Source: Ecdyonurus torrentis (lineage: Eukaryota; Arthropoda; Insecta; Ephemeroptera; Heptageniidae). From it: a stretch of 64,000 nt of DNA. The notes under the pieces were generated by a model. That model did not search any database. It saw nothing but the letters and a program-made list of their open reading frames with translations, and was not told where the DNA came from. The stretch's first letter is position 1. Every line of letters starts with the position of its first letter. A program made the position numbers and the translations under genes. Below are positions 43,553 to 63,687 of the stretch, one piece after another. Location of the stretch: positions 23,638,957 through 23,702,956 of the forward strand of contig OX439135.1 in the NCBI GenBank assembly GCA_949318235.1, given 5' to 3'.

Positions 43553-43764
43553 TTACGTGGCATCGGCTTGGTCAGAGTTTGACGACATGATAGCCGCATC
43601 ATCCTCGGGAGGGTCAGCTCCCGGGTCAGAACTCAGCGGTAAGTCAGCGTCAGCATCATCCAGTTCAGAACCAAGGTCAGGTGGAGCGGGGTCTTGTTCC
43701 AAGTTGAGGCCAAAGTCAGTTTCATTCTCAGGGTAGCCAGGTGGGGGTGCAGCCAAGTTAGAAC
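43553..43764 (-). CDS. BTB gene, last constant exon (acidic C-terminus)
   Basis: On the minus strand the acceptor CTTCCTTCCCCCAG precedes GTTCTAAC. The split codon completes GGT with the previous exon's final G. The exon encodes 69 further residues, rich in Asp, Pro and Ser (constant-region residues 402-470), ending DQADAT and TAA at 43555-43553. AATAAA lies just past the stop at 43528-43523. The region is probably disordered and could act in activation or repression. Confidence 0.88.

Positions 43765-63687: not shown

Follow-up and report, generated by a model that had tools for sequence, protein, structure and literature searches.

On the minus strand of a 64,000-nucleotide stretch of the mayfly Ecdyonurus torrentis (contig OX439135.1), referred to here as the window, eight alternative 5' cassettes encoding DNA-binding domains lie ahead of a single set of exons encoding a BTB domain and its tail, and they are very probably joined singly to this BTB-and-tail module within one gene. 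The locus is real and conserved in protein models, following the logic of lola in the reversed order. The textbook genes lola and mod(mdg4) combine one BTB module with many DNA-binding tails, and the mayfly locus resembles them, at the level of gene structure, in having one constant BTB part common to many alternative DNA-binding domains. In these genes the BTB comes at the N-terminus and the exons that vary follow on the 3' side; here the variable exons are located at the 5' side and the BTB in the middle, with the constant part ending in a stop codon at 43553 and an AATAAA at 43528, thus the reverse of the lola/mod(mdg4) order. The initial annotation had described eight ATG-bearing DNA-binding cassettes 5' of shared BTB exons, and this arrangement is confirmed by splice sites, phases, reading frames and Pfam domains.

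The minus strand was read from 64,000 to 43,000 and the exons were placed by splice signals. The eight cassettes span 53,029-63,651, and all of them begin with an ATG and finish at a phase 1 donor (8/8), the donor exon ends being 63513, 62418, 60447, 59308, 58418, 57588, 54811, 53438 and 53029, while the acceptor exon starts of the constant region, 51716 and 50483, are both in phase 1 as well. Every donor and acceptor listed by the initial annotation is present at its base; the donors were adopted from it and there was no blind prediction, so the probability that all eight cassettes share phase 1 by chance, (1/3)^8 or about 1.5e-4, is not a clean test. In all eight spliced cassette-to-constant frames, the stop at 43,553 is the sole stop.

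Regarding the constant part, its seven exons (C1 to C7) encode a proline/glutamine-rich linker, a BTB domain split between C2 and C3, and a tail that is proline-rich and then acidic. C1 (51540..51716, minus strand, as are all exons below) has PKD as its first whole codons, and its 177 nt, bounded by phase 1 on either side, can be left out without a frameshift. C2 (50110..50483) carries the proline/glutamine-rich linker and the first part of the BTB, matching Cloeon by tblastn at 77% over 52 amino acids, and C3 (47360..47631) carries the rest of the BTB, matching Neocloeon at 78% over 74 amino acids. They are followed by the proline-rich tail of C4 (45862..46159), with a short tblastn match, by C5 (44953..45042), matched in 13 of 120 relatives, by the acidic C6 (44423..44591), and by C7 (43553..43764), which holds the acidic tail and the stop codon. 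When the 120 relatives were compared with the window by tblastn (E<=0.01), the matches were confined to this locus and to the minus strand. The BTB scores 78.9 bits with Pfam and matches the sequence of the CG6765 hexamer chain 8rc6 with an E of 6.9e-10. The motif ahead of its core, given earlier as the TTK-type FxLRWN, actually reads VCLRWN, fitting the TTK type save for the first position, V in place of F. Rfam yields no match in the window at gathering scores.

In each cassette, Pfam detects a DNA-binding domain that passes its gathering score (8/8), comprising two FLYWCH, three BED, one THAP, one Tc5-type HTH and one HTH_Tnp_1, compared with none of seven ORFs taken from other parts of the window as a small control (0/7), and no catalytic transposase domain is detected in the cassettes by Pfam. 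With at least five domain families, the cassettes as a whole are not tandem duplicates of each other. The most upstream one, K1, is made of two exons, the first (63513..63651) with the ATG and the first half of a FLYWCH zinc finger, closed by a phase 1 GC donor (AAG/gcaagt), and the second (62418..62735, 318 nt) with the other half of the finger and a linker, also ending in phase 1; the finger scores 27.3 bits. As both exons end in phase 1, skipping of 62735-62418 is possible, at the cost of half the zinc finger. The single-exon cassettes, all ending in phase 1, are K4 (59308..59536), a BED zinc finger of 38.1 bits; K5 (58418..58844), a THAP domain of 50.4 bits; K6 (57588..57825), a FLYWCH zinc finger of 40.3 bits; K7 (54811..55645), where a transposase-type HTH (HTH_Tnp_1) of 27.8 bits (cut-off 24.1) is followed by a long tail with an acidic end; K8 (53438..53717), a BED-type zinc finger of 25.7 bits; and K9 (53029..53227), a BED zinc finger of 32.2 bits.

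The Tc5-type cassette differs in its start from what had been annotated. The exon K3 (60447..60667) encodes the Tc5-type HTH (HTH_Tnp_Tc5, 50.6 bits) and ends in phase 1, but one base ahead of its ATG (60666) there is a possible acceptor, tttatttag/A. Upstream, the exon K2 (61239..61450) carries an ATG and a first CENP-B-type HTH, labelled HTH_ABP1_N, with 24.0 bits against a cut-off of 22.5 when the exon is scored alone and 21.0 bits in the joined K2/K3 protein. Its donor (att/gtaggt) is not strong; it is in phase 2, matching the K3 acceptor, and the join reads through. Because of this possible acceptor, the upstream CENP-B-type HTH and the phase match, K2 and K3 are likely one two-exon cassette with a bipartite CENP-B/Tc5-type domain, starting at 61,450 and not at 60666, and the total stays at eight. 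The same pair, CENP-B_N and then Tc5, is seen in the Periplaneta isoform P0019. K3 as an independent first exon was rejected, owing to the possible acceptor one base before its ATG and the phase match with K2.

A search with the BTB part retrieved 1290 proteins, from which the best 120 were compared. The BTB entry motif is found in 114 of these 120 relatives, always at residue 69 or later, and the motif pattern missed the other six, one being the scorpion protein P0001, which is BTB-first. The DNA-binding labels among the best 120 include FLYWCH, BED, THAP, Tc5 plus CENP-B, psq, Myb-like, MADF and C2H2-type domains, and some proteins are unlabelled. The proposed order, a DNA-binding N-terminus, a BTB in mid-protein and a constant tail, is encoded in the window and recurs in the relatives' protein models. 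DBD-first insect isoforms (e.g., Apis LOC411361) share with the window the BTB group, the order and homologous cassettes, although some of these relatives carry Myb-like, MADF or psq domains, which were not seen in the window.

Within species, 17 insect protein sets were compared for a common C-terminal block. In 15 of the 17, an identical C-terminal block holds the BTB motif and the N-termini differ, and for 12 of these sets the DNA-binding domains named by precomputed Pfam labels are different, the exceptions being two Schistocerca sets and Dufourea. The pattern is missing from the Halyomorpha set, where the block is of 36 amino acids and the models diverge near the C-terminus, and from the Osmia set, where one differing residue inside the BTB cuts the block. 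The Cloeon pair is drawn from two assemblies and the Dufourea pair contains a fused model. Periplaneta has six N-termini on one identical block of 438 amino acids; domains pass the cut-off in half of them (Myb-like in one, CENP-B plus Tc5 in another, Tc5 in the third), and the other three have none. Among the best 120, the five hymenopteran models labelled FLYWCH and BED (P0050, P0094, P0095, P0096 and P0120; P0096 by motif) hold FLYWCH, BED and BTB in one chain, a domain order equal to that of K1, K4 and the BTB in the window; these fused models are taken as neighbouring cassettes read together by gene prediction. Seven relatives (lgn source) are on contigs of 1,556 to 3,790 bases, and in the window the BTB exons end 5,868 bases away from the nearest cassette and 10,466 away from K6. 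If these contigs were assembled from RNA, as we infer, they would represent spliced transcripts.

The residue at the junction is restricted by the phase, as a phase 1 join to C1 produces the codon N-CT, with only A, S, P or T possible before PKD. The eight isoforms of the window have A, S and P at this position; in two Neocloeon models the common sequence begins exactly at PKD, preceded by A and S, and Cloeon has P and A at the junction. The test was applied to 13 of the 17 sets, with Halyomorpha, Osmia, Cloeon (shown apart) and Dufourea left out and one of the three Apis models omitted. In six of the 13, the residues before the common block fit a change of the first codon base, compared with about 21% for random pairs, and in the other seven there is no fit, and the first residue of the block (V in six, A in one) would need to be the junction codon. 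The junction residues are consistent with phase 1 and are informative in six sets only.

As for the cassettes themselves, seven of the nine cassette sequences (K2 and K3 being counted apart) match N-termini of DBD-first relatives. At E<=0.001 among the best 120 relatives, there are 39 matches for K1, 37 for K4, three for K6, two each for K3 and K9, one each for K5 and K8, and none for K2 and K7. The nine best K1 matches shown are all hymenopteran (top 39% over 72 amino acids), and the best K4 match has 41.5% over 53 amino acids. K6 matches the Neocloeon isoform X5 (51% over 63 amino acids), K8 the Rhodnius isoform X10 (41% over 51) and K9 the louse Menopon (55% over 40), while the matches of K3 to Halyomorpha and Periplaneta N-termini are weak (33-34%), as is the single one of K5, to a Schistocerca THAP isoform (30%, E 2.5e-4). 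At E<=0.01 over 231 proteins, the cassette matches are restricted to P0002-P0120 and P0127, the other 110 later-listed proteins giving none; neither for K7 nor for the first exon of K2/K3 is there a homologue among the 231. In this comparison, the only proteins matched by both K1 and K4 are four fused hymenopteran models, with the domains at different places, and K4 and K9 both match one Rhodnius BED protein. When K6, K8, K9 and the K7 HTH were searched without the BTB in 5.8 billion proteins, none of 754 candidates matched at E<=0.01, perhaps owing to the requirement for exact five-letter words in common.

The BTB tree has 44 rows, leaving out P0127 and P0139 (no motif match), with a midpoint root for display. 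Within the DBD-first group (99/99), the window clusters with two mayflies, Cloeon and Neocloeon (99/97), and its highest identity is 82%, with Neocloeon. The BTB-first relatives, collected in a second list of the best 120 of 270 matches, fall outside the DBD-first group. Most of P0129-P0231 are of this kind, their BTB motif lying at roughly residues 9 to 22 and their variation at the C-terminus, and the nearest BTB-first proteins among the matches listed are about 60-69% identical over the BTB. The BTB-first isoforms of Cryptotermes, Zootermopsis and Periplaneta have a common BTB start and differing C-termini, some with a psq HTH. Thus, these insect relatives keep the ordinary lola order, which is reversed in the window; among the matches listed, the nearest BTB-first proteins form an ordinary lola-like family, and the mirror order marks one group. 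Isoforms of moths, beetles and termites are numerous in P0129-P0231, under bric-a-brac 2-like and other names. The scorpion protein P0001 was rejected as a member of the DBD-first group, being BTB-first, outside that group and on a very long branch.

Regarding the mechanism, we consider it moderately likely, for this step taken alone, that every cassette serves as a first exon under a promoter of its own. In-frame stops are located 6 to 147 bases ahead of each ATG, and therefore no cassette merely extends an upstream reading frame. The GC content of the 250 upstream bases is raised at five of the eight starts (not K4, K5 and K9). No common promoter motif stands out upstream of the ATGs, the best 7-mer having a nominal p of 3.8e-3 with 1990 7-mers present, and the CRE-like TGACGTCA (13 sites) and CACGTG (20 sites) are scattered over the window. 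A less likely arrangement, to which we give a minor share of the probability, is that of one upstream promoter and a common non-coding leader, spliced to a single cassette and onwards to the constant part, with the cassettes acting as mutually exclusive exons. Acceptor-like sites are present before the ATGs of K1 (64 nt), K7 (103 and 114), K6 (170) and K8 (179), and a leader located beyond 64000, the edge of the window, would fall outside it, but for five of the nine ATGs (K2, K3, K4, K5 and K9) no acceptor in the preceding 200 nt scores above 2. This acceptor scoring is a weak test, because the nine predicted sites themselves score from -3.7 to 8.9 and four of them (C1, C2, K1b and K3) are below 2.

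From separate first exons, cis-splicing at phase 1 would join the chosen cassette to 51716 or 50483, and as the cassettes are on the same strand as the constant exons, cis-splicing suffices and trans-splicing is unnecessary. The trans-splicing of short cassette transcripts to a BTB pre-mRNA has a precedent in mod(mdg4), which does so in flies and moths according to the accessible part of PMC4667647; it is very unlikely here, with all cassettes upstream on the same strand within 12 kb of C1 and with cassettes and BTB held in one chain by the fused gene models of relatives. That a BTB gene starting near 51.7 kb merely adjoins an array of DNA-binding exons of another gene or of dead transposons, as the lack of K7 homologues among the 231 proteins might suggest, is hardly credible given the phase agreement of 8/8, cassettes with no catalytic transposase domain by Pfam, homologous cassettes directly ahead of the same BTB in other insects' proteins and a switch at the same residue in Neocloeon.

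The predicted protein would bind DNA via the domain of the chosen cassette, and its BTB would assemble it into homo- and hetero-oligomers. This assembly is what we infer from the kind of BTB, as fly TTK-type BTBs have been shown to form hexamers and to heteromerise broadly (PMC11426971, accessible text). As the BED, CENPB, THAP and FLYWCH families are counted as transposon-derived (PMC10027918, in the part available), the cassette array probably grew by capture of such domains. We consider it probable that the locus is an ancient mirror-image lola, where one BTB module has been collecting transposase-type domains as alternative first exons since before the split of mayflies and bees, with cell types choosing the N-terminal readers by promoter and mixing them in BTB assemblies.

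In protocadherin clusters and UGT1A, tandem 5' cassettes feed one constant 3' part. In arthropods, the nearest 5' cassette layout found is that of the chelicerate sDscam, where tandem 5' cassettes preceded by promoters share one constant 3' part (PMC4835542, accessible text). The gene structure of the mayfly locus is similar to these three in that its 5' coding cassettes stand in tandem on one strand and have donors that fit the constant 3' exons; however, the cassettes of the three repeat one domain type, compared with at least five domain families here and a predicted nuclear regulator as the product. In Drosophila, lola and mod(mdg4) join a TTK-type BTB to alternative DNA-binding exons, FLYWCH included, as described in the available parts of PMC11426971 and PMC4667647, and the mayfly locus differs from them also by its use of BED, THAP and CENP-B-type domains. 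According to the accessible text of PMC11426971, a TTK-type BTB normally sits at the N-terminus; CG6118 and bric-a-brac2 are given there as exceptions, and no swappable N-terminal DNA-binding exons are mentioned for them. As far as the available text of PMC4667647 goes, mod(mdg4)-like genes were sought there with the BTB upstream of FLYWCH, and such a search would miss a DBD-first locus.

The initial annotation knew of no described case, and in the open-licence literature, searched by title and the start of the abstract, none of the matches listed deals with a locus that combines a shared BTB with a choice of DNA-binding exons at the N-terminus; likewise, the gene identifiers of six relatives were not found in open-licence main texts. 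The relatives are filed under unrelated names, such as jim lovell-like, tramtrack-like and bric-a-brac-like (bric-a-brac 1-like among them), which may be why the DBD-first locus was overlooked. A related reverse-order locus, present in protein models of insects as far apart as mayflies and bees, would show that the principle holds as well when the DNA-binding part is in front, a placement where the selection of this part could depend on the choice of promoter and not on 3' splicing or trans-splicing. Such a locus would, in addition, keep collecting transposase-type DNA-binding domains and offer a direct test bed for their capture as exons.

Other elements are present in the window. Plus-strand ORFs at 26230-29461 resemble exons of another gene, with no Pfam family above cut-off. 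The region 1-18517 is a long tandem repeat, where 2702-7225 and 11163-15700 are 98.3% identical, 1-2636 and 8484-11105 are 94.9% identical, and 468-2983 and 16064-18517 are 91.2% identical. Long palindromic elements, which are their own reverse complement over about 300-620 bases at 79-86%, are located at 43944-44235, 39019-39637, 35120-35501 and 27515-27906. Finally, a repeat of about 300 bases has three copies, 83-86% alike and one of them inverted, in an intron (49756-50056) and between cassettes (56042-56352 and 56613-56911), and it is probably a small mobile element.
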